From the NCBI RefSeq assembly GCF_013911085.1, contig NZ_JACERN010000023.1:124001-188000 (forward strand): DNA of 64,000 nt. Reading direction: 5' to 3'. Position numbers and translations under genes: made by a program. Positions 843 to 43,386 of the stretch are shown in pieces. Numbering within the stretch: position 1 is the first letter of the stretch; the number at the start of each line of letters is the position of its first letter. The notes under the pieces are model-generated. The model did no database searches and was not told the origin of the DNA. It worked only from the letters and a program-made list of their open reading frames with translations. This stretch comes from Aquitalea aquatica (GTDB lineage Bacteria > Pseudomonadota > Gammaproteobacteria > Burkholderiales > Chromobacteriaceae).

Positions 843-2252
843 TCAGGGGTAGACGATGCGCAGCAGGTTGGTGGCGCCCGGGGTGCCGAAAGGCACGCCG
901 GCGATGATCACCATCGGCTTGCCCTGTTCGGCCAGGCCCAGTTTGGTGGCGCAGAAGGTGGTTTTCACCACCATGTCTTCCAGGTTTTCCGCGTCCGGGC
1001 CGTTATAGGCCACCACACCCCATACCAGGGTCAGGCGGCGGGCGGTGCTCAGCCGCGGTGAGATGCCCATGATGGGGGTATGCGGGCGCTCGCGCGCCAG
1101 GCGCAGGCAGGTAGAGCCTGAGGTGGTAAAGGCTGCCGATACGGTGACCGGCAGGATGGAGGCTACCTTGCGCACGCAGGCGGCGATGGCATCGGCCTGC
1201 TCGGGAGACTCGGCTGCGCTGTAATCCAGCGCCATCACCCGGCGGTAGTCCGGCGCACCTTCCACGCGGCGGATGACCCGGTCCATGATCTGCACCGCTT
1301 CTACCGGGAAGGCTCCGGCAGCGGTTTCGGCTGACAGCATTACGGCATCGGCACCTTCATACACTGCCGTGGCGACGTCATTGGCTTCCGCACGGGTGGG
1401 GGTGGGGGCGGAAATCATCGACTCCAGCATCTGGGTAGCCACGATCACCGGACGGCCCAGGTGGCGGCACTGGTGCACGATGCGGCGCTGTACCACCGGC
1501 ACGTCTTCCGGCGGCAATTCCACGCCCAGATCGCCACGGGCCACCATCACCGCATCGGCCAGTTCGGCAATTTCGTCCAGCTGATCCACCGCTGACGGCT
1601 TTTCAATCTTCACTACGATGCCCACGCTATTGCCTATCATCTGGCGCAATTCGCGTACGTCTTCGGCGGTTTGCACAAAGGACAGGGCGATCCAGTCGGC
1701 ACCTTCCTGCAGGGCAAACTGGGCGTCCTTGCGGTCTTTCGGGGTGATGGCGGACAGCGGCAGGATGGTTTGCGGCAGGTTGAAGCCCTTGCGGTCAGAC
1801 AGCTCACCCCCCACGGCCACCGTGGTGTGGATGACCCGGTCCTGCACGCGTTCCACGTGAAACGACAGCTTGCCGTCATTCACCAGGATGTGATGGCCAT
1901 GTTCCAGTGCGGCAAAGGCTTCCGGGTGGGGCAGGGTGACCTGCTCGGCATCGCCGTCCACCTGATCAAGCACAAAACGGTAGGGCTGGCCGGTGCTGAC
2001 GGTGACTGGGCCTTGCGGGAAAGTGCCGATGCGCAGCTTGGGGCCTTGCAGATCAACCAGTACACCGATGGGGCGGCCCATTTCGGTTTCTGCTGCGCGG
2101 ATGGCGGCCAGGCGGGCGCGGTGATCGTCGTGGCTGCCGTGGCTCATATTGAGCCGGAATACATTCACCCCGGCGCGTGCCAGCGCCAGGATCTGCTGCG
2201 GGCTGCTGGATACCGGTCCCAGCGTGGCGAGAATCTTGGTATTGCGGAGCAT
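843..2252 (-). CDS. pyk: Pyruvate kinase
   Basis: A full-length 469-residue pyruvate kinase, which transfers phosphate from phosphoenolpyruvate to ADP in the last step of glycolysis. The N-terminus TKILATLGP and the RLNMSHG segment are the usual start of the barrel. VVKIEKPSAVDQLDEI is the active-site signature with its catalytic lysine, and MVARGDLGVELP follows as in the family. The C-terminal domain has the nucleotide/effector fold. Length and start match bacterial enzymes. It is monocistronic, converging on the DUF799 gene and divergent from glpK. Whether it is the PykA or PykF type cannot be settled by eye. Confidence 0.95.
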   Translation of the reverse strand: MLRNTKILATLGPVSSSPQQILALARAGVNVFRLNMSHGSHDDHRARLAAIRAAETEMGRPIGVLVDLQGPKLRIGTFPQGPVTVSTGQPYRFVLDQVDGDAEQVTLPHPEAFAALEHGHHILVNDGKLSFHVERVQDRVIHTTVAVGGELSDRKGFNLPQTILPLSAITPKDRKDAQFALQEGADWIALSFVQTAEDVRELRQMIGNSVGIVVKIEKPSAVDQLDEIAELADAVMVARGDLGVELPPEDVPVVQRRIVHQCRHLGRPVIVATQMLESMISAPTPTRAEANDVATAVYEGADAVMLSAETAAGAFPVEAVQIMDRVIRRVEGAPDYRRVMALDYSAAESPEQADAIAACVRKVASILPVTVSAAFTTSGSTCLRLARERPHTPIMGISPRLSTARRLTLVWGVVAYNGPDAENLEDMVVKTTFCATKLGLAEQGKPMVIIAGVPFGTPGATNLLRIVYP

Positions 2253-2675
2253 GTACTTGTCCTTGTCGATGCCCGGCCAGAGCTGCCGGCGGGCGTGAGG
2301 TGTTGTCTGGTGCGCCTGATCTGCAGGCTAGTTGCCTGCCAGGTTCTCTTTGTTTCCGCATCATGCTGCCACATCCGCGCTGTAGTGGCTGCGCTACCTT
2401 GCCGGTACTTGGTCTGGGTGTTGCCGTCTTGTCAGTAGACAAATTTTCCGGGTGCGAATCATGCGCGTTTTGCTTGCGCTGCGGTGGTCTGGTGTTGTTA
2501 TTTTGCCTCGTCTGGCAAAACGCCTGGTTTGCTGCAAAGCAAGAAAGGCGCAAATCATTGTAGTGCGGTGCTTACAGACCATGGTCATTTGCGATATCGT
2601 GCGCTGCAAAACGGCCAGTTGGCCGCTAACGGCGGGTCGGATTTCAGCAAACAGCGAAAGTTTTATGCGTGTTGA

Positions 2676-2703
2676 TTGACAGCTGAATCGTGACAACTAG
2701 AAT
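2676..2703 (+). promoter_or_regulatory. Sigma-70 promoter of glpK
   Basis: TTGACA at 2676-2681 and TAGAAT at 2698-2703, separated by 16 bases. The -35 is perfect and the -10 differs from TATAAT at one position. It lies about 170 bases before the glpK start, leaving a long AT-rich leader. Confidence 0.65.
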
Positions 2704-2713
2704 TGGCCGAAAA

Positions 2714-2730
2714 TAAAACGAACAATATAA
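2714..2730 (+). promoter_or_regulatory. Candidate GlpR operator at glpK
   Basis: AAACGAACA at 2716-2724, just downstream of the predicted -10, where a repressor would block initiation. The same 9-mer occurs upstream of glpD at 5483-5491. CGAACA matches the half-site of the E. coli GlpR operator (recalled as ATGTTCG...CGAACAT). The opposing half-site is poor, so the full operator boundaries are uncertain. Confidence 0.4.
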
Positions 2731-2873
2731 ATACAAAAAACAACATAACAAAGATTGCTGCCTCGCTTTTCCAGCCAGTTCGCTGGAGAGGTCTGAGGTG
2801 ATGCCGTCAAAACCAGTCAGCAAAAAGCGCTCGGCCTGCAACGGCCCTTTGGATTGCAAAGGAGACACCTCAC

Positions 2874-4370
2874 ATGAAAAACCAGTTCATCCTGGCTCTG
2901 GACCAGGGAACCACCAGTTCCCGCGCCATTCTGTTCAATCAGGCTGGCGACATCGTTTCGCTGGCACAAAAGGAATTCCGCCAGATCTACCCCCAGCCGG
3001 GCTGGGTAGAGCACGACCCGCAGGAGATCTGGGGCGGTCAGGCCGGTGTCGCGGCCGAAGCCGTGGCCAAGGCCGGTATCGATGGCCGCAGCATTGCCGC
3101 CATCGGCATTACCAACCAGCGCGAAACCACCATCGTGTGGGACCGTGAAACCAGCCTGCCGGTATACAACGCCATCGTCTGGCAAGACCGCCGCACGGCG
3201 GAATTTTGCGATCAGCTGAAAGAGCGCGGCCTGGCCGACGCCATCCGCAACAAGACCGGCCTGCCGGTGGATGCCTATTTCTCCGGCAGCAAGATCAAGT
3301 GGATTCTGGACAATGTGCCGGGTGCGCGTGCCCGCGCCGAAGCCGGCAAGCTGGCCTTCGGTACGGTGGACAGCTGGCTGATCTGGAATTTCACCCACGG
3401 CAAGGTACACGTCACCGATGTGTCCAATGCCTCGCGCACCATGCTGTACAACATCCACACCCAGCAGTGGGATGCCGAGCTCTTGGACATCATGGGCATC
3501 CCGGCCAGCATGTTGCCGGAGGTGAAAAGCTCCAGCGAAGTGTATGGCCACACCCATGCGGCCCATCTGGGCGTGGAAATCCCGATTGCCGGCGTAGCCG
3601 GTGACCAGCAGGCTGCCCTGTTCGGCCAGCAGTGCACCCGTCCGGGCATGGTGAAGAATACCTACGGCACCGGCTGCTTCATGATGATGAATACCGGCAG
3701 CAAGCCGATTGAATCCTCCAATAATCTGCTGACCACCATTGCCTGGAAGGTGGATGGCCAAGTGCAGTACGCGCTGGAAGGCTCCATCTTCATTGGCGGT
3801 GCGGTGGTGAAATGGCTGCGCGATGGCCTGGGCATCATCCGTCATTCGGCTGATGTCGGCCCGCTGGCACAGGAAGTGGCCAGCAGCGACGGCGTGTACC
3901 TGGTACCGGCTTTTGCCGGCCTGGGTGCGCCGCACTGGAACCCCAATGCCCGTGGCACGATTGTCGGTGCCACGCTGGGGACCAAGGCTGCCCACATCGC
4001 CCGTGCCGCACTGGACAGCATCGCCTACCAGACCATGGACGTGCTCAAGGCCATGGAAGCCGATGCCGGCATGGCGATTGCCGAGCTGCGTGTGGATGGT
4101 GGCGCCACCGTCAACGAACTGCTGATGCAGTTCCAGTCCGACATCCTGGGGGTCGATGTGGTCCGTCCGAAAATCACCGAAACCACCGCGCTGGGTGCTG
4201 CCTATCTGGCGGGTCTGGCCGTGGGTTACTGGGATGGCGTGGCGGATATCCAGGGCCAGTGGCAGCTGGACCGCCGCTTCCAGCAGAACATGGCTGCCGA
4301 TGAGGTGAGCAGCAATGTCCGTGGCTGGAACCGCGCAGTCAACGCAGCCAAGGCCTGGGCTGAATCCTGA
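2874..4370 (+). CDS. glpK: Glycerol kinase
   Basis: A 498-residue FGGY-family kinase that phosphorylates glycerol to sn-glycerol 3-phosphate in the cytoplasm. The N-terminus [14 protein letters not shown] is the phosphate-binding motif of glycerol kinases. Other family landmarks are [25 protein letters not shown] and the C-terminal [18 protein letters not shown]. The length is normal. An AGGAG ribosome binding site precedes the ATG. glpF follows after 227 bases and glpD further on, giving a glycerol uptake and oxidation set. Regulation by the GlpR encoded at 9582-10346 is likely, as half-sites lie near the glpK and glpD promoters. Confidence 0.97.
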
Positions 4371-4597
4371 GACGCAAGCTGACCGCCTTGTCCTGCCGCC
4401 GCCATGCCCGGGCGGACGGCAGGCCGGATGATCTGTCCGGCGGTTGCTGTGCTTCATTTTCCTGAGTGTCCACCATGCAGCCGGTGCGCCGACCTTGCGT
4501 CGCCAACGGCCTGCGGTGGTGGCAATAGCGTCGGGGGAGAGCAGCCGTCTGCCAATGTAGCGGACGGTAGCGGGAGCCCTGGCGCGGAGACAAAACC

Positions 4598-5302
4598 ATG
4601 AATCCTTTGTTTGGTGAATTTATCGGAACGGCCCTGCTGGTGTTGCTGGGCAATGGTGTGGTGGCCAATGTGCTGCTGAGCAATACCAAGGGTCATAACA
4701 GCGGCCTGATCGTGATTGCCTTTGGCTGGGCCATGGCGGTGTTTGTCGGTGTGTTCAGCGTGGCCGCCATCAGCGGTGCCCACCTGAACCCGGCGGTGAC
4801 CGTGGCGCTGGCAGTGGCAGGCAAGTTCGAATGGGCCCGCGTGCCGGGTTATGTGCTGTCACAGATGCTGGGCGGCATGATGGGTGCGCTGCTGGTGTGG
4901 GTGATCTACCGCAAGCATTACGAAACCACCGACAGTGCAGATCTCAAGCTGGCCACCTTCTGCACCGGCCCGGCCATTCGCAGCCTGCCGGGTAACCTGT
5001 TGTCCGAGGTGCTGGCTACCTTTGTGCTGGTGTTTGCCATCCTCAGCATGGTGGCGCCGAAGATGTCGCTGGGGGCGATGGATGCCCTGCCGGTGGCGCT
5101 GCTGGTGCTGGGCATCGGCGTGTCGCTGGGTGGTACCACCGGCTATGCCATGAGCCCGGCGCGCGATCTGGCCCCGCGCATCATGCATGCCCTGCTGCCC
5201 ATTCCCGGCAAGCGCTCCAGCGACTGGGGCTATGCCTGGGTGCCGGTGGTGGGCTCCTTGCTGGGCGCTACCCTGGCCGCGGTGACCTATACCCATCTGT
5301 AA
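4598..5302 (+). CDS. glpF: Glycerol uptake facilitator (aquaglyceroporin)
   Basis: A 234-residue MIP-family channel with six predicted membrane segments that lets glycerol diffuse into the cell, where GlpK traps it as the phosphate. The first pore motif is canonical (HLNPAV, N64-P65-A66). The second is S186-P187-A188-R189-D190: the conserved Asn at the second half-helix tip is Ser, read from codon AGC at 5153-5155. The Arg of the selectivity filter is kept. GGAG precedes the ATG. It sits 227 bases after glpK, probably in the same transcript, and ends at a terminator. The substrate is inferred from context. Confidence 0.93.
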   Translation: MNPLFGEFIGTALLVLLGNGVVANVLLSNTKGHNSGLIVIAFGWAMAVFVGVFSVAAISGAHLNPAVTVALAVAGKFEWARVPGYVLSQMLGGMMGALLVWVIYRKHYETTDSADLKLATFCTGPAIRSLPGNLLSEVLATFVLVFAILSMVAPKMSLGAMDALPVALLVLGIGVSLGGTTGYAMSPARDLAPRIMHALLPIPGKRSSDWGYAWVPVVGSLLGATLAAVTYTHL

Positions 5303-5343
5303 TTTTGTTTTGCTCCTGGTCGCCCCGGAAGTTCGGGGCCGGC

Positions 5344-5368
5344 AAGCCACCTGCGGGTGGCTTTTTTT
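5344..5368 (+). terminator. Intrinsic terminator after glpF
   Basis: Stem AAGCCACC / GGGTGGCTT followed by a run of seven T. It separates the glpK-glpF unit from glpD, so glpD should have its own promoter. Confidence 0.85.
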
Positions 5369-5470
5369 ATGCGCTTTGTTTGTCTCCCGCATGTGTCCTG
5401 GTGCAGCCATGGGAGGGCGGATGGCGGGGGAAGCAAACAAAATTGTGGCCTATACGCACATTGCAGCGCA

Positions 5471-5527
5471 CAAAACGAAAACAAACGAACATTTCATGTT
5501 GAATTTGTATTCGTATGACTCTATGCT
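5471..5527 (+). promoter_or_regulatory. glpD promoter with candidate GlpR half-sites
   Basis: TTGAAT at 5499-5504 and TATGCT at 5522-5527 are 17 bases apart. Upstream lie ACGAAA (5475-5480) and AAACGAACAT (5483-5492), ten bases apart, and an oppositely oriented TTCGTA (5510-5515) lies inside the spacer. CGAACAT equals the E. coli GlpR half-site as I recall it and is shared with the glpK region. The promoter is moderately supported; operator identity is inference. Confidence 0.45.
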
Positions 5528-5611
5528 AAGCAGCATCAACAAGCAGAATCCGCCTTCTTGCCCTGTAGCGACAGGCGCAGGCCGGATGCAGACAAGACCG
5601 AGGATTGCACT

Positions 5612-7150
5612 GTGAAACTCTATGACCTGATGGTGATTGGCGGCGGCATCAATGGCACCGGCATCGCGCGCGATGCGGCAGGGCGCGGGCTGTCCGTGCT
5701 GCTGTGCGAAAAGGATGATCTGGCTTCGCACACCTCGTCGGCCAGTACCAAGCTGATTCATGGCGGCCTGCGTTATCTGGAATATTACGAATTCGGCCTG
5801 GTGCGCAAGGCGCTGCAGGAGCGCGAAGTGCTGCTCAAGGCCGCACCGCACATCATCTGGCCGCTGCGCTTTGTCATGCCGCATGACAAGGCCCAGCGTC
5901 CGGAGTGGATGATCCGCAGTGGCTTGTTCCTGTACGACCACCTGGCCAAGCGTGAAGTATTGCCCGGCTCGGAAACCATCAGTTTTGACCGTCACCCTTC
6001 CGGCGCGCCGCTGAAAGCCGCATTCAAGCGTGGCTTTGTCTATTCCGATGGCTGGGTGCAGGATGCCCGGCTGGTGGTGCTCAATGCCATGGCGGCTGCC
6101 GAACATGGCGCGCGTATTGTCACCCGCACTGCTTGCGTGGGTGCGCGACGCGAGGACGGCCGCTGGATTTGCACCTTACAGCATAGCGATGGCCAGCGTG
6201 AGCAGGTGGCGGCCCGCGCCGTGGTGAATGCCGCCGGCCCCTGGGTGGAAAGCCTGTTGAAAGACACCCTGCAGCTGCCGTCGCCCAAGTCCATCCGTCT
6301 GGTCAAGGGCAGCCACATCGTGGTGAACAAGCTGTTCGATCACCCCTATGCCTATATTTTCCAGAACCCGGACAAGCGCATCATCTTTGCCATCCCGTAC
6401 GAAAACGACTTCACCCTGATTGGCACCACCGATGTGGAATACCACGGCGACCCCGGTGCCGTGGCCATCGATGCGGACGAGGTGGATTATCTGTGCCGCA
6501 TGAGCAATCGTTATTTCAACAGCCAGATCGGCCCCGACGATGTGCTCAGCACTTATTCCGGCGTGCGCCCCCTGCTGGATGACGAAGCCAGCAATGCCTC
6601 CAGCGTAACCCGTGACTATGCGCTGGAACTGGATGCCGACGTGGCACCGATGCTGTCGGTGTTTGGCGGCAAGATCACCACCTACCGCAAGCTGGCGGAA
6701 GAGGCGGTGGATCGGCTGGCCCCGCTGCTGGGCAATGGCAAGCCTACCTGGACGGCTGGCGTGCCGCTGCCGGGTGGTGACATGCCGAATGCCGATGCTG
6801 CGGCGTTCCTGGCGGCCAGCCAGCAGCGCTACCCCTGGTTGCCGGCAGCCGTACTGCAGCGCTATGTGAAGAGTTACGGCACGCGTCTGGCCACGCTGCT
6901 TGGCAGTGCCAGCAAGCTGGCCGAGCTGGGGGCGGAAATCCTCCCCGGCGTGTACGAGGCCGAGCTGAGCTACCTGGTAGACCAGGAATGGGCGGTCACC
7001 GCCGAAGACATCCTGTGGCGGCGCAGCAAGCTGCGGCTGCATTTGCCCGCCGATGCCGGCGCCATCCTGGATGGCTGGCTGGCGCAGTACCGTGCCGGCG
7101 CTGGCCTGCGCCAGCCTGAGCTGCTAGTCGCGGGCACCCAGCCGGGCTGA
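5612..7150 (+). CDS. glpD: Aerobic glycerol-3-phosphate dehydrogenase
   Basis: A 512-residue FAD enzyme of the inner-membrane face that oxidises sn-glycerol 3-phosphate to dihydroxyacetone phosphate and passes electrons to quinone. The N-terminal dinucleotide-binding motif is LMVIGGGINGTGIARDAAGR, followed by SSASTKLIHGGLRYLE, typical of GlpD. A longer reading frame with an ATG at 5558 exists. I prefer GTG at 5612 because GAGGA lies 7 bases upstream and translation then begins right at the FAD motif. It completes the pathway begun by glpF and glpK. A terminator follows at 7213. Confidence 0.95.
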   Translation: MKLYDLMVIGGGINGTGIARDAAGRGLSVLLCEKDDLASHTSSASTKLIHGGLRYLEYYEFGLVRKALQEREVLLKAAPHIIWPLRFVMPHDKAQRPEWMIRSGLFLYDHLAKREVLPGSETISFDRHPSGAPLKAAFKRGFVYSDGWVQDARLVVLNAMAAAEHGARIVTRTACVGARREDGRWICTLQHSDGQREQVAARAVVNAAGPWVESLLKDTLQLPSPKSIRLVKGSHIVVNKLFDHPYAYIFQNPDKRIIFAIPYENDFTLIGTTDVEYHGDPGAVAIDADEVDYLCRMSNRYFNSQIGPDDVLSTYSGVRPLLDDEASNASSVTRDYALELDADVAPMLSVFGGKITTYRKLAEEAVDRLAPLLGNGKPTWTAGVPLPGGDMPNADAAAFLAASQQRYPWLPAAVLQRYVKSYGTRLATLLGSASKLAELGAEILPGVYEAELSYLVDQEWAVTAEDILWRRSKLRLHLPADAGAILDGWLAQYRAGAGLRQPELLVAGTQPG

Positions 7151-38878: not shown

Positions 38879-40204
38879 TCAGGCGCTGATTGGTACGGTC
38901 TGGCCGAGTGGCAGCAGGATACGAATGCGAAAGCCGCCATCGGCCTCGTCGGCAAACTGCAGCTGGCCGTGGTGCTGTTTGACCACGCGCGACACGATGG
39001 CCAGCCCCAGTCCGCTGCCACCATCGGTACCGCGGTGTTCGGCCAGCCGTTCGAACGGGGCCAGTGCCGATTCACGCAGTGCGGCGGGAATGCCAGCACC
39101 GTGGTCGATCACGCTCAGCTCAGCCATGCCGTTGCGCTGGTCGATTTCCACCCGTACCGGCGGTTTGCCATAGCGGCGGGCATTTTCCAGCAGATTGGAC
39201 AGCAGCCGCTCCAGTGCCAGCGCATCGGCCTGCAGTTCCGGTTCGGCATGACGGACCAGGCTGACATCCAGTCCACTGCGGGCCAGACGGGCCACCACGC
39301 TGTCGGCCAGTTCTGCCAGTGCTACCGGTTCCAGCCGCGCTGATTCCTCGGCACGGGCAAAGTCGATGAACTGGCGCACAATACGTGACAGCTCGTCGAT
39401 GTCCGCCAGCATGTCCGGTGTGTCCGGGCTGCTGTCCTGCAACTCCAGCATCAGCTTCAGTCGGGTCAGCGGGGTGCGCAGGTCGTGCGACAGTCCGGCC
39501 AGCATCAGCCGGCGTTCGCGGGCCGCGCTATCCAGTGCGCTGGCCATGTGGTTGAAGCCACGTGCCAGGGCCGCCAGCTCTCGCGGGCCGTCTTCGCACA
39601 GTGGCGGCGGCATATTGCCACGTGCCAGCTCACGCGAGGCCTCCACTACCTTGCCAATCGGGCGGGTGATGCGCCAGGCCACCAGTGAAGCCAGCAAGGT
39701 GGCCAGCAGGGTGGCCAGCAAGGCGGCCTGCATCAGTGAGTAGATGGGGCGGTCACTGTAGCGACCAAAGGGAATCACCAGCCAGTAAGGGGTGTCCAGC
39801 ACATGCAGGTTGACCCACAGCTCGTTGCGGTCTTCGCGGTGCACCATATAGCCGCGCACGGTGTCGTCCAGCCCCTTGCTCAGCCGGCTGACCAGGCTGT
39901 CGGCCACGCGTGGCAGCTCGGTGTCGAACTGCTGCCTGGCCGCCGCTTGTTGCGGCAGCAGGCGCGGCAGGCCGGGGCGGTTGTAGCTGGCCAGAAACGC
40001 GGTACGCTGGGCGGGGTTCATATTGTCCATTGAGCCTTCGAGGAAGGCCAGCGTATCCACCACCTGGGCATACAGCTGCTTGTCCATCAGCTTGTGGCGC
40101 TCACCCGCCGCGATATAGACCGTGACGATCTGGGTGGTGACCACCACCACCACTACCAGCACGATCAGGCGAAACAGCAGGGAACCGGCAAGGCGTCGCA
40201 ACAC
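38879..40204 (-). CDS. Sensor histidine kinase, EnvZ-like
   Basis: A 441-residue membrane kinase. Segment one is LFRLIVLVVVVVVTTQIVTVYIAAG, then a periplasmic domain of about 130 residues, and segment two is AALLATLLATLLASLVAW, followed by a HAMP domain (ITRPIGKVVEASRELARGNMP). The H-box is LAGLSHDLRTPLTRLKL, the N-box NLLENARRYG, and the G-boxes DHGAGIP and GGSGLGLAI. Architecture and partner match EnvZ/OmpR-type systems. It starts three bases after the regulator gene. The stimulus is unknown. Confidence 0.88.
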   Translation of the reverse strand: MLRRLAGSLLFRLIVLVVVVVVTTQIVTVYIAAGERHKLMDKQLYAQVVDTLAFLEGSMDNMNPAQRTAFLASYNRPGLPRLLPQQAAARQQFDTELPRVADSLVSRLSKGLDDTVRGYMVHREDRNELWVNLHVLDTPYWLVIPFGRYSDRPIYSLMQAALLATLLATLLASLVAWRITRPIGKVVEASRELARGNMPPPLCEDGPRELAALARGFNHMASALDSAARERRLMLAGLSHDLRTPLTRLKLMLELQDSSPDTPDMLADIDELSRIVRQFIDFARAEESARLEPVALAELADSVVARLARSGLDVSLVRHAEPELQADALALERLLSNLLENARRYGKPPVRVEIDQRNGMAELSVIDHGAGIPAALRESALAPFERLAEHRGTDGGSGLGLAIVSRVVKQHHGQLQFADEADGGFRIRILLPLGQTVPISA

Positions 40205-40207
40205 CGC

Positions 40208-40933
40208 TTACTCCCGCTCGCTGCCGTCGGGCACGAAGACATAGCCGTAGCCCCACACGGTCTGGATGAAGCGCAGGGGGCTGTCGCCGCCTTCCAGCGT
40301 CTTGCGCAGGCGGGAAATGTGCACGTCGATGCTGCGATCCAGCGATTCGCCATTGCCCTTGCCCAGCGCCATTTCCATCAACTGTTCACGGGTGAGCGGG
40401 CGGCGCGGATGCGTGGCCAGTACGGTGAGCACGGCAAATTCGGCGGTGGTGAGTGACAGGGCTTGCTGGTTTTTCAGCAGTTCGCGCCGTCCCAGATTGA
40501 GCTGGAACTCGCCAAACTCGATCACTTCGTCGGACTCGTGGCGGGCGGCCAGTGCTGGGGTGGCATGGTGGCGGCGCAGTACCGACTGGATGCGGGCGGT
40601 CAGCTCGCGCGGGTTGAAGGGCTTGGGCAGATAGTCGTCTGCACCCATTTCCAGCCCGAGAATGCGGTCCACATCTTCGCCGCGCGCGGTCAGCATGATG
40701 ACGGGCACCGTCTCGCCCTGGGCGCGCAGGCGGCGCACCACGGCCAGGCCGTCATCGCCTGGCATCATCACGTCCAGCACCATCAGGTCCGGGCGGTTTC
40801 GCGCCAGTTTGCGGTCGAGTTCGCGGGCATCCGGCAGGGTGTCAACCACATAACCCTGCTGTCCCAGGTAGCGGGTAAGCAGCTCGCGCAGTTTGGCGTC
40901 GTCGTCGACGATAAGAATCTTGTTGTGTTCCAT
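40208..40933 (-). CDS. OmpR-type response regulator
   Basis: A 241-residue regulator: receiver domain (LIVDDDAKLRELLTRYL; phospho-acceptor Asp54 in LDVMMPGDDG; Lys in YLPKPFNPRELTARI) and C-terminal winged helix (SLTTAEFAVLTVLATHPRRPLTREQL and SIDVHISRLRKTLE, TVWGYGYVFVPD). AAGGAAA precedes ATG 40933. The closest match by eye is OmpR of beta- and gammaproteobacteria. The region upstream carries tandem 10-base repeats that fit an OmpR-type operator shared with the divergent small exported gene. Confidence 0.88.
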   Translation of the reverse strand: MEHNKILIVDDDAKLRELLTRYLGQQGYVVDTLPDARELDRKLARNRPDLMVLDVMMPGDDGLAVVRRLRAQGETVPVIMLTARGEDVDRILGLEMGADDYLPKPFNPRELTARIQSVLRRHHATPALAARHESDEVIEFGEFQLNLGRRELLKNQQALSLTTAEFAVLTVLATHPRRPLTREQLMEMALGKGNGESLDRSIDVHISRLRKTLEGGDSPLRFIQTVWGYGYVFVPDGSERE

Positions 40934-41041: not shown

Positions 41042-41081
41042 GTTATCTGCCGTTCACAAAAGTTAACATTTGGTAACATGT
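41042..41081 (+). promoter_or_regulatory. Tandem decamer array, candidate OmpR-type operator
   Basis: Four consecutive 10-base units start at 41042, 41052, 41062 and 41072 with GTTATC, GTTCAC, GTTAAC and GGTAAC. Ten-base direct repeats are the mode of DNA recognition by OmpR/PhoB regulators, and GGTAACATGT resembles OmpR half-sites. The array ends just above the predicted -35 of the gene at 41149, whose -35 is poor, as at activated promoters. Confidence 0.55.
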
Positions 41082-41109
41082 GACACACGGATGCGCAAAG
41101 GCCGCCTTC

Positions 41110-41115
41110 TACACT
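41110..41115 (+). promoter_or_regulatory. -10 element of the small exported protein gene
   Basis: TACACT at 41110-41115. No good -35 lies 17 bases upstream, but the decamer array does, which suggests activator dependence. Inference only. Confidence 0.35.
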
Positions 41116-41148
41116 GGGATCGTGTGCTGCATGCCGGAGATTTTTATT

Positions 41149-41361
41149 ATGAAAAAGTCATTGATTTTAAACATTTTTGCCATTGCTGCCCTGAGTCTGG
41201 GCGCGACGGCGCAAGCCGCCGAACGCGGCGGTAATGGTGCCGATATCCGCGAGGCGCGCCAGTTGGCCGCACAGAGCACGCAAGTGGCGACGCCTGCTGC
41301 CGGATACACCGTGCCGGATGGCGCATCGACCTCGATGCGCCGTCCTAGCGGTGAGAAGTAA
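41149..41361 (+). CDS. Small exported protein, 70 residues
   Basis: Signal peptide MKKSLILNIFAIAALSLGATAQA, then a short mature chain of about 47 residues rich in Ala, Arg, Ser and Thr (ERGGNGADIREARQLAAQST), with no cysteine and no recognised domain. GGAG lies about 10 bases before ATG 41149. It is divergent from the OmpR-type gene, directly below the decamer array, so it is the best candidate target of that system. I do not recognise a family. Confidence 0.6.
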   Translation: MKKSLILNIFAIAALSLGATAQAAERGGNGADIREARQLAAQSTQVATPAAGYTVPDGASTSMRRPSGEK

Positions 41362-41451
41362 GCACCATCGTCATTCATGTCCATCAGCCTTCTGCCGTTA
41401 TGCCGCTGAGTCAGCATGGCAGGAGGCGTAATGTCAGGTTAAAATGAAGCC

Positions 41452-41823
41452 ATGAAGTACCATGCCATTTATGTCTTGCTGTTTGCCTCGGTGACGGCAT
41501 TCGCCTTGCCGGCGCTGGCGCAGGGCCCAAATGGCGCGGAGGACGGCGCGGCGGAATTCCAGCGTTTCCCACCCCGGCAATCTGCCGGAGAGGAACGCCG
41601 CTTGCGCAATCTGCGTCTGAAAGAGGCCGTGCAGGCCGGTGACTTGTCGCCGGAAGACGCACGGCGCCTGCAGCGTCGCCATCCTCCGGGGGGGCCGCCT
41701 GCGGGTGGCATGGGCGAACCTGACCGTTTTGCACCGGATGGTTTTTCACATCCTCCGCCGGGGCAGCGCAATTTCTGGCGCGACAAGCGACAAAAGGCTC
41801 AGGAGCAATTCCAGAACGATTGA
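41452..41823 (+). CDS. Hypothetical secreted Pro/Arg-rich protein
   Basis: 123 residues with signal peptide MKYHAIYVLLFASVTAFALPALA. The mature chain has a charged helical stretch (RRLRNLRLKEAVQAGDLSPEDARRLQRR) like the helical motif of small periplasmic stress proteins, then a Pro/Gly-rich part and a basic tail (RDKRQKAQEQFQND). No cysteine. No clear ribosome binding site precedes the ATG. It lies 90 bases after the small exported gene and 49 before the Cys-repeat gene, possibly one transcript. Function unknown. Confidence 0.55.
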   Translation: MKYHAIYVLLFASVTAFALPALAQGPNGAEDGAAEFQRFPPRQSAGEERRLRNLRLKEAVQAGDLSPEDARRLQRRHPPGGPPAGGMGEPDRFAPDGFSHPPPGQRNFWRDKRQKAQEQFQND

Positions 41824-41872
41824 TCCGGCTATCTTTAGTAGCCGGACATTGCCAGTGGCAAGGATCACGGCC

Positions 41873-42340
41873 TTGAACAAAGCTTGGGGTAGGTGGAGTA
41901 AGGGCAACTGGCTGGTGGGTTTGGCCATGTTGGCAGGGATGATGTGGTCGGCGCCAGTGCTGGCCGCCCCGGACTGTGACAAGGCCATGGCACCGCAACG
42001 CTGTGCCAGTTACCGGCAAGGCTGGCTCAGTTGTTCAGATCTGACCGCTGGGTCGCGTCGCGCCTGTATCGAACAGTTCACCCCGGCGCTCAGTTGCCAG
42101 CGCAGCCGTGATGCCCGGCGCTGTGAAGCCTTGCTGGCGGCACAGGCTGCCTGCGAGGGGAGCGAGGGGCTGGCTCGACGGCTGTGTGTGCGTGAGCGAC
42201 TGCCCGCAGCCGATTGCAGCCGCGCCAGCGACAAGGCCCGCTGCGAGCAGCGGGCGGCGGCAGAGCAAAGTTGTGCTGAAACTGCGGCCCAGCAAGGACG
42301 AGAATGTGTACGCAAGGCACTGGCTCCTTCAGGTGACTGA
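41873..42340 (+). CDS. Secreted 12-Cys protein with three 40-residue repeats
   Basis: About 155 residues from a proposed TTG start at 41873 (AAGG upstream; GTG 41855 is an alternative). A signal peptide with basic n-region ends at VLA-A. The mature chain has exactly 12 cysteines, at 35, 44, 54, 65 / 75, 84, 94, 105 / 115, 124, 134, 145. The spacing C-x8-C-x9-C-x10-C-x9 is repeated three times without deviation, with Arg before the second Cys of every repeat. Sequence between cysteines is divergent and helix-prone. The pairs C-x9-C...C-x9-C recall twin-CX9C helical hairpins. I know no named bacterial family for it. A terminator follows at once. Confidence 0.65.
   Translation: MNKAWGRWSKGNWLVGLAMLAGMMWSAPVLAAPDCDKAMAPQRCASYRQGWLSCSDLTAGSRRACIEQFTPALSCQRSRDARRCEALLAAQAACEGSEGLARRLCVRERLPAADCSRASDKARCEQRAAAEQSCAETAAQQGRECVRKALAPSGD
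41975..42337 (+). repeat. Three 120-bp coding repeats of the 12-Cys protein
   Basis: Units at 41975-42094, 42095-42214 and 42215-42337. They are defined by cysteine register, not DNA identity; the nucleotide sequences have diverged. Confidence 0.75.
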
Positions 42341-42354
42341 AACCGCCACAAAAC

Positions 42355-42385
42355 AAAACCCCGCTGTCACGACAGCGGGGTTTTT
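42355..42385. terminator. Intrinsic terminator after the 12-Cys gene
   Basis: Stem ACCCCGCTGTC / GACAGCGGGGT with A- and T-tracts on either side. It can also serve the convergent quinone oxidoreductase gene. Confidence 0.9.
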
Positions 42386-42411: not shown

Positions 42412-43386
42412 TCAGGGCAGCAGAATGATGGAGCCGGTGGTGCGGCGGCCTTCCAGATCACGGTGTGCAGTCGCTGCGGCAGCCAGCGGGTAACTGGTGG
42501 ATGGCTTGACCTGCACCGCCCCGGCGGCAATGCGTTCGAACAAGGCCGCCGCCGAAGCTTCCAGTTCCTCGCGCTGGGCAATGTAGTCTCCCAGCTTGGG
42601 CCGGGTGAAAAACAGCGAGCCTTTTTGCGATAGCAGCAGCGGTTCGAATGCCGGCACCGCTCCCGAGGCATTGCCGAAGCTGACGAAAGTACCACGCGGG
42701 GCCAGGCTGTTCAGCGACATTTCAAAGGTGCTTTTGCCCACTGAGTCGTATACCACCGGCACGCCCTTGCCGCCGGTGATCTCGCGTACCCGCGCCACCA
42801 CATCTTCCTCGCTGTAGTTGATGACATGGGCGCAGCCCAGCTGGCGGGCCAGTTCGCCCTTGGCCGCCGAGCCGACCGTGCCGATCACCTGTACCCCAAG
42901 CGAATTGAGCCACTGCACGGCGATCTGGCCTACGCCACCTGCGGCGGCATGCCACAGTACGGTCATACCGGGCTGCACGGCAAAGGTGCGGCGGATCAGG
43001 TACTCCACGGTCATGCCCTGCAGCATGATGCAGGCGGCCACTTCATCGCTGATGCTGTCCGGCAGCCTGACCAGTACCGCTGCGGGAATCAGCCGGACCG
43101 TGCTGTAGGCTCCCAACGGCCCGCCGGCATAGGCGACGCGGTCGCCCACTTGCAGCTGTGTCACGCCTTCCCCTACTGCGTCCACTACCCCGGCCGCTTC
43201 GCTGCCCAGGCCACTGGGCAGGGCAATCGGATAGAGTCCGCTACGCTGGTAGGTATCGATGAAATTGATGCCGATGGCGCGGTGACGCAGGCGTACTTCG
43301 CCTGGGCCGGGTTCGCCGACACTGATGTTTTCCAGCTGCAGCACATCGGGTGACCCGGTGACATGAAAACGGATGGCCTGGCTCAT
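42412..43386 (-). CDS. qorA: NADPH:quinone oxidoreductase
   Basis: A 324-residue zinc-independent medium-chain dehydrogenase/reductase. Family segments are RHRAIGINFIDTYQRSGLYP, LPSGLGSEAAGVV and VLWHAAAGGVGQIAVQWLNSLG (nucleotide-binding), followed by YDSVGKSTFEMSLNSLAPRGTFVSFG. It reduces quinones using NADPH and probably protects against electrophiles. The length fits E. coli Qor (327). It is monocistronic and divergent from the H-NOX gene by 216 bases. Confidence 0.9.
   Translation of the reverse strand: MSQAIRFHVTGSPDVLQLENISVGEPGPGEVRLRHRAIGINFIDTYQRSGLYPIALPSGLGSEAAGVVDAVGEGVTQLQVGDRVAYAGGPLGAYSTVRLIPAAVLVRLPDSISDEVAACIMLQGMTVEYLIRRTFAVQPGMTVLWHAAAGGVGQIAVQWLNSLGVQVIGTVGSAAKGELARQLGCAHVINYSEEDVVARVREITGGKGVPVVYDSVGKSTFEMSLNSLAPRGTFVSFGNASGAVPAFEPLLLSQKGSLFFTRPKLGDYIAQREELEASAAALFERIAAGAVQVKPSTSYPLAAAATAHRDLEGRRTTGSIILLP

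Follow-up and report, generated by a model that had tools for sequence, protein, structure and literature searches.

We describe a cysteine-repeat protein of Aquitalea aquatica, encoded in the 64,000-nucleotide stretch of DNA analysed here (the window), that indicates an exported family of bacterial repeat proteins outside the copies of Pfam and NCBIfam that we searched. After an export signal, its 12 cysteines form three exact copies of C-x8-C-x9-C-x10-C-x9, at residues 35, 44, 54, 65, 75, 84, 94, 105, 115, 124, 134 and 145. Taken as a whole, our best explanation is an exported, disulfide-stapled helical repeat scaffold in the periplasm that serves a partner, a proposal on which we consider the case evenly balanced. 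Its structural half, a disulfide-stapled helical scaffold, is quite probable; the role of the scaffold with a partner is offered tentatively, as a rather doubtful assignment.

The frame is translated into 155 residues from a putative TTG start (Table 1), and the eight closest relatives (L002-L009) share both this start and the AAGGA ahead of it. The initial annotation had reported three Cys4 repeats of fixed spacing with an arginine before each second cysteine; the translation reproduces the spacing with zero deviation and places the arginines at R43, R83 and R123, one per unit. When 12 cysteines are placed at random over 124 positions, the probability of three identical four-cysteine blocks of any kind is 2.3e-10, and sequence identity to unit 2 amounts to 22% for unit 1 and 34% for unit 3. 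Comparisons with close relatives gave dN/dS values of 0.03-0.09 in six of eight cases, the remaining two being saturated, and a profile of 24 homologues detected a relative in 45 of the 61 genomes of the window's family, Chromobacteriaceae, with one match in the window genome. Both results oppose the idea, initially named as a possible refutation, that the frame is not translated, and judged by its substitution pattern and spread the ORF is a real gene under purifying selection. Among organisms with a name, the nearest relative is Aquitalea magnusonii, at 92% identity, in keeping with an origin of the window in or near Aquitalea. A chance ORF at this position was ruled out by dN/dS, and no antisense frame over the gene was present among the frames common to at least six loci.

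Table 1. Features of the cysteine-repeat locus, in window coordinates.
Feature	Position	Strand	Basis or remark
Sensor kinase, envZ-like	38879..40204	-	Best NCBIfam match EnvZ, below cut-off; HAMP, HisKA, HATPase
ompR, divergent from partner and Cys-repeat genes	40208..40933	-	NCBIfam NF007005 above cut-off
Promoter-like match, 9 of 12, just 5' of partner gene	41416..41445	+	1 found vs 0.3 expected; weak
Partner gene: small exported protein, LRxLRLxEAxxxGDL and C-terminal WR motif, 49 bases upstream of CDS	41452..41823	+	Conserved linkage
Putative ribosome-binding site AAGGA, 8 bases 5' of TTG	41860..41864	+	Read from sequence; kept in L002-L009
CDS of Cys-repeat protein, 155 aa, TTG start	41873..42340	+	Relatives in 45/61 family genomes; dN/dS
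Predicted signal peptide, residues 1-31, cleavage VLA/AP	41873..41965	+	By eye from sequence
Unit 1, C35 to residue 74	41975..42094	+	Translation; two helices in low-confidence whole-protein model
Unit 2, C75 to residue 114	42095..42214	+	Translation; hairpin when modelled alone, mean pLDDT 81.7
Unit 3, C115 to residue 155	42215..42337	+	Translation; shortened or cut in 11 Chromobacterium-genus proteins
Perfect 13-pair stem, terminator-like, between Cys-repeat gene and convergent oxidoreductase gene	42355..42384		Motif scan
Zinc-type alcohol dehydrogenase/quinone oxidoreductase-like gene, convergent	42412..43386	-	Pfam ADH_N, ADH_zinc_N

No fitting model for the window protein was found in Pfam at an E-value of 10 or in NCBIfam, and the seven Pfam families matched by 24 members at an E-value of 1 did not include CHCH, Sel1 or TPR. 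Titles and opening parts of abstracts of open-licence PMC papers contained neither a report of a bacterial twin-CX9C protein nor a description of this cysteine-repeat family. That the layout belongs to no recognised bacterial family, as initially supposed, thus holds for the Pfam and NCBIfam copies searched, in which no named family covers it.

Alignment of homologues had been proposed as a check, and within Chromobacteriaceae it revealed a cysteine register that is maintained while the remaining sequence drifts. Counting from the first unit cysteine onward, and leaving out L025 and L026, whose frames contain stops, 41 of the 45 family proteins carry 12 cysteines and four carry 10, and all eight cysteines of units 1 and 2 are kept in every one of the 45. 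Spacing deviates in some of them: x6 replaces one x8 in L022, L024 and L154, and x9 replaces the last x10 in L010, L012, L121, L123 and L125. The arginine before the second cysteine is invariant in unit 1, near-invariant in unit 3 and variable in unit 2 of the 24-row alignment. Each of the four proteins short of cysteines is down by exactly two, always in the third unit. L129 has lost the second and third cysteines of that unit through an in-frame gap and kept the first and fourth; L148, by a less certain alignment, has apparently lost the first and fourth and kept the second and third; L140 and L142 each have two cysteines left in the third unit. Shortened or cut third units occur in the Chromobacterium-genus proteins L023 (/L131), L129, L130, L140-L146 and L148, a natural series that includes the four losses of a cysteine pair.

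Beyond the window's family, relatives were accepted in 16 genomes from four other families, all of the same order, Burkholderiales. Matches in G375 and G039 were rejected and G145 was left out for a contig gap (L037, L045, L080, L092, L097); L043, a 40-residue frame, and L090, a frame with a stop, were dropped as not credible, and loci repeating an already counted gene were left out. The 19 proteins counted, from 15 genomes, contain one unit (4 proteins), two units (12), three units (2) or five units (1). The five-unit gene (L058) holds a duplicated two-unit block, with 227 of 252 bases identical, and the two-unit L038 has two extra cysteines in its tail. Because relatives carry 1, 2, 3 or 5 units, the 40-residue unit together with its four cysteines is a closed module. 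Counted from the first unit cysteine onward, the cysteine total is even in all 64 chains, which is consistent with disulfides, although these totals are not independent, reflecting mostly descent and profile searches that favour intact cysteines. Four of the other-family genomes carry pairs of paralogues, namely L087 and L093 (G147), L096 and L088 (G221), L095 and L089 (G251), and L042 and L094 (G164); three of these pairs combine a one-unit with a two-unit paralogue. In a sample of the order, matches were found in 17 of 399 genomes with one profile and in 22 with a broader one, six of the 22 coming from the window's family, and in a sample of the class the single match among 369 genomes was the window's own. 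Because few candidates were scored per genome, confinement to one order is a provisional result.

To characterize the fold, we used AlphaFold at two levels. The whole protein, modelled with nine sequences, yielded six helices, two per unit (pLDDT 69.4, pTM 0.48), with unreliable packing between units. Unit 2 alone, modelled with 21 of 27 available unit rows, formed a two-helix hairpin (pTM 0.52) in which the first helix spans positions 9-21 of the unit, with Cys2 at 12 and Cys3 at 22 just past its end, and the second spans 28-37 and holds Cys4 at 33; Cys1, at 3, lies in the leading coil. The unit is thus probably an alpha-alpha hairpin in these models, and together with the signal read by eye the predicted helices bear out the early description of an exported, helix-rich protein. 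Natural length variation is in line with this architecture: L033, L034 and L036 have x13 between Cys2 and Cys3 where others have x9, with x8 and x10 unchanged, and the four additional residues correspond to about one turn, as expected for a helix between these cysteines. The spacing in L095 and L096 is x11/x13/x11.

The model also constrains the pairing. Should Cys2 and Cys3 mark the two ends of one helix, a bond between them would be impossible; the remaining options would be Cys1-Cys2/Cys3-Cys4 and Cys1-Cys3/Cys2-Cys4. We prefer the former: a Cys3-Cys4 bond would bridge the loop between the two helices, and helix A begins close to Cys1. What L129 and L148 have lost would fit nested pairs better than such staples; the third units related to them already lack the x9 spacing, and pairing may differ there. 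Genes of the DsbA and DsbB families are present in the window genome, so that oxidative folding would be expected after export. Together with the predicted signal they agree with the earlier placement of the protein where disulfides form, and we infer that the protein is exported and contains disulfides.

The gene directly upstream, here called the partner, also encodes a small exported protein. A partner profile built from 9 rows matches 59 of the 61 family genomes, and in all 45 that carry the Cys-repeat gene it is preceded, on the same strand, by the partner, with 30-380 bases between match ends. Fourteen of the 61 genomes have the partner without the Cys-repeat gene, none has the Cys-repeat gene alone and two have neither; among the partner-only genomes, the match in G015 is far from ompR and that in G018 is short. 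The profile matched none of the 16 repeat-carrying genomes of other families, where divergence could hide a partner. From the 14 partner-only genomes and this null result outside the family, neither gene needs the other everywhere. The partner matches neither Pfam at an E-value of 0.01 nor NCBIfam at 1e-20. A promoter-like match before the pair and a terminator-like stem after it make a two-gene unit likely. The stem was reported on the minus strand only, with 1 found vs 1.8 expected in shuffles, and the run of five T on its plus side was read by eye. Similar regulator and kinase frames flank all 14 family loci compared, and the convergent gene of the window is quinone oxidoreductase-like. Between ompR and the partner lies a third small exported frame (41080-41361, plus strand; AERGGNGADIREARQ), with similar frames in L047-L051.

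This constancy of the locus bears on a different reading of the protein, as a disulfide-stabilised effector or inhibitor of an outside enzyme, secreted and resistant to proteases. A small, cysteine-rich protein with an export signal and a repeat number that varies between genera would suit such a role. Against it, the gene occupies one kind of locus throughout the family, beside the partner and near ompR/envZ-like genes; it is under strong purifying selection; and the window protein found no match among 72,556 plasmid or 50,697 phage records. We regard this reading as distinctly unlikely.

Neighbours in other families differ from those in the window and raise another alternative, namely that the four thiols of a unit bind copper, zinc or iron and so store or buffer the metal in the envelope. 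In L060, L061 and L101, two-unit relatives from one genus, the repeat gene follows a ferritin-like gene (Pfam Ferritin in L060 and L101; a bacterioferritin motif only in L061). In L060 (region 1921-6300), genes for a TonB receptor, for an Fe(II) hydroxylase of the PKHD type and for a DUF3016 protein also lie upstream. The ferritin-like gene, the receptor and the hydroxylase, the four cysteines per unit and a Gly/Met-rich linker after the signal in five of the six f21 relatives read (L033-L036, L038) speak for metal binding. The ferritin neighbour, however, was limited to 3 loci among the 18 from other families that were scanned; cysteines in intact units stand 8-13 residues apart, with no CxxC-type sites; third units that drop two cysteines and keep two would be odd for a Cys4 site; and the compartment would be oxidising if DsbA acts on the protein. 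On balance, metal binding is an unlikely function.

Returning to the stapled scaffold, we propose the following mechanism. Gene, repeat, register, even cysteine number, modularity and linkage are established by comparing sequences, and the steps built on them are conditional. Each 40-residue unit would fold into a short alpha-alpha hairpin, in which helix A would start shortly ahead of Cys2 and extend to Cys3, and Cys4 would sit in helix B. The Dsb system would oxidise the four cysteines of each unit in the periplasm to two disulfides, one at the base (Cys1-Cys2) and one bridging the loop (Cys3-Cys4), giving a rigid, stapled helical rod whose other surface would be free to vary. As to function, our guess is that the rod acts in the periplasm, where it would bind the small exported protein encoded just upstream or serve it as an adaptor; the two genes would form one unit next to ompR/envZ. 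The natural one-, two-, three- and five-unit versions offer a system for asking how disulfides replace a hydrophobic core, and the family would be useful for asking how Dsb enzymes fold multi-disulfide helical proteins. The linked partner gene is a direct lead toward function.

The closest parallels come from two known systems. The first is the CHCH fold, in which, according to PMC10653836, two cysteine pairs with nine residues between their members lie in separate helices. The initial annotation had pointed to twin-CX9C geometry, of which one CX9C helix per unit is supported and the twin arrangement, as worded there, is not: one CX9C is found per unit where CHCH has two, one per helix, and among the four one-unit members L083 and L087 have a single CX9C and L095 and L096 have none. 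In the window's family the other CX9C of the array, from Cys4 to Cys1 of the next unit, contains a proline at +6 (P71 in 24/24 rows, P111 in at least 90%), and helix B of the unit model ends before this segment; in other families the x13-type units of L033, L034 and L036 are not followed by this proline. A profile of 24 homologues searched against the sequences of solved structures nevertheless gave its best match to a CHCH protein, ATPTG9 from the ATP synthase of Toxoplasma (E 0.033), with CX9C segments in register by manual reading. At 16.3 bits it exceeds 992 of 1000 shuffles that hold the cysteines fixed, with 8 scoring equal or higher; since it is the top score among 177,635 sequences, the similarity is weak and suggestive only.

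Common descent with mitochondrial intermembrane-space proteins, which would make the family a bacterial branch of the twin-CX9C fold, draws on this match and on the hairpin model of unit 2. The weakness of the match, the one-unit members, the conserved proline of the second x9 segment within the family, the Pfam matches of the 24 members, free of any CHCH model, and the occurrence of the repeat in one bacterial order only, in the samples searched, make it highly improbable. Also improbable is a looser version, in which Burkholderiales would have evolved a tandemly repeated CHCH-like disulfide hairpin in the periplasm. Each unit would contribute a single CX9C helix and draw its fourth cysteine from the loop ahead of it, making the family a free-living counterpart, by convergence or remote kinship, of the intermembrane-space proteins. 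The family bears on whether CX9C-type hairpins arose more than once. What the unit shares with CHCH proteins such as ATPTG9 is a CX9C helix, a predicted helical hairpin and an oxidising compartment; what sets it apart is that it has one such helix and a Cys1 placed ahead of it. The unit may resemble a CHCH hairpin in how it works while not belonging to that fold.

The second parallel is bacterial. HcpB and HcpC of Helicobacter are described in PMC3851747 as having a signal peptide and tandem, disulfide-stabilised alpha/alpha units, the SLRs usually being 36-38 residues long, with disulfides that connect the tail of a repeat to the head of the following one. The Cys-repeat protein resembles them in being bacterial, in its predicted signal peptide and in its predicted tandem alpha/alpha units of similar length, probably also stabilised by disulfides. 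The Pfam scans (E-value of 10 for the window protein and 1 for 24 members) matched no Sel1/SLR family, and unlike the Hcp proteins its family has four cysteines per unit and includes single-unit members, which show that these units can stand alone.
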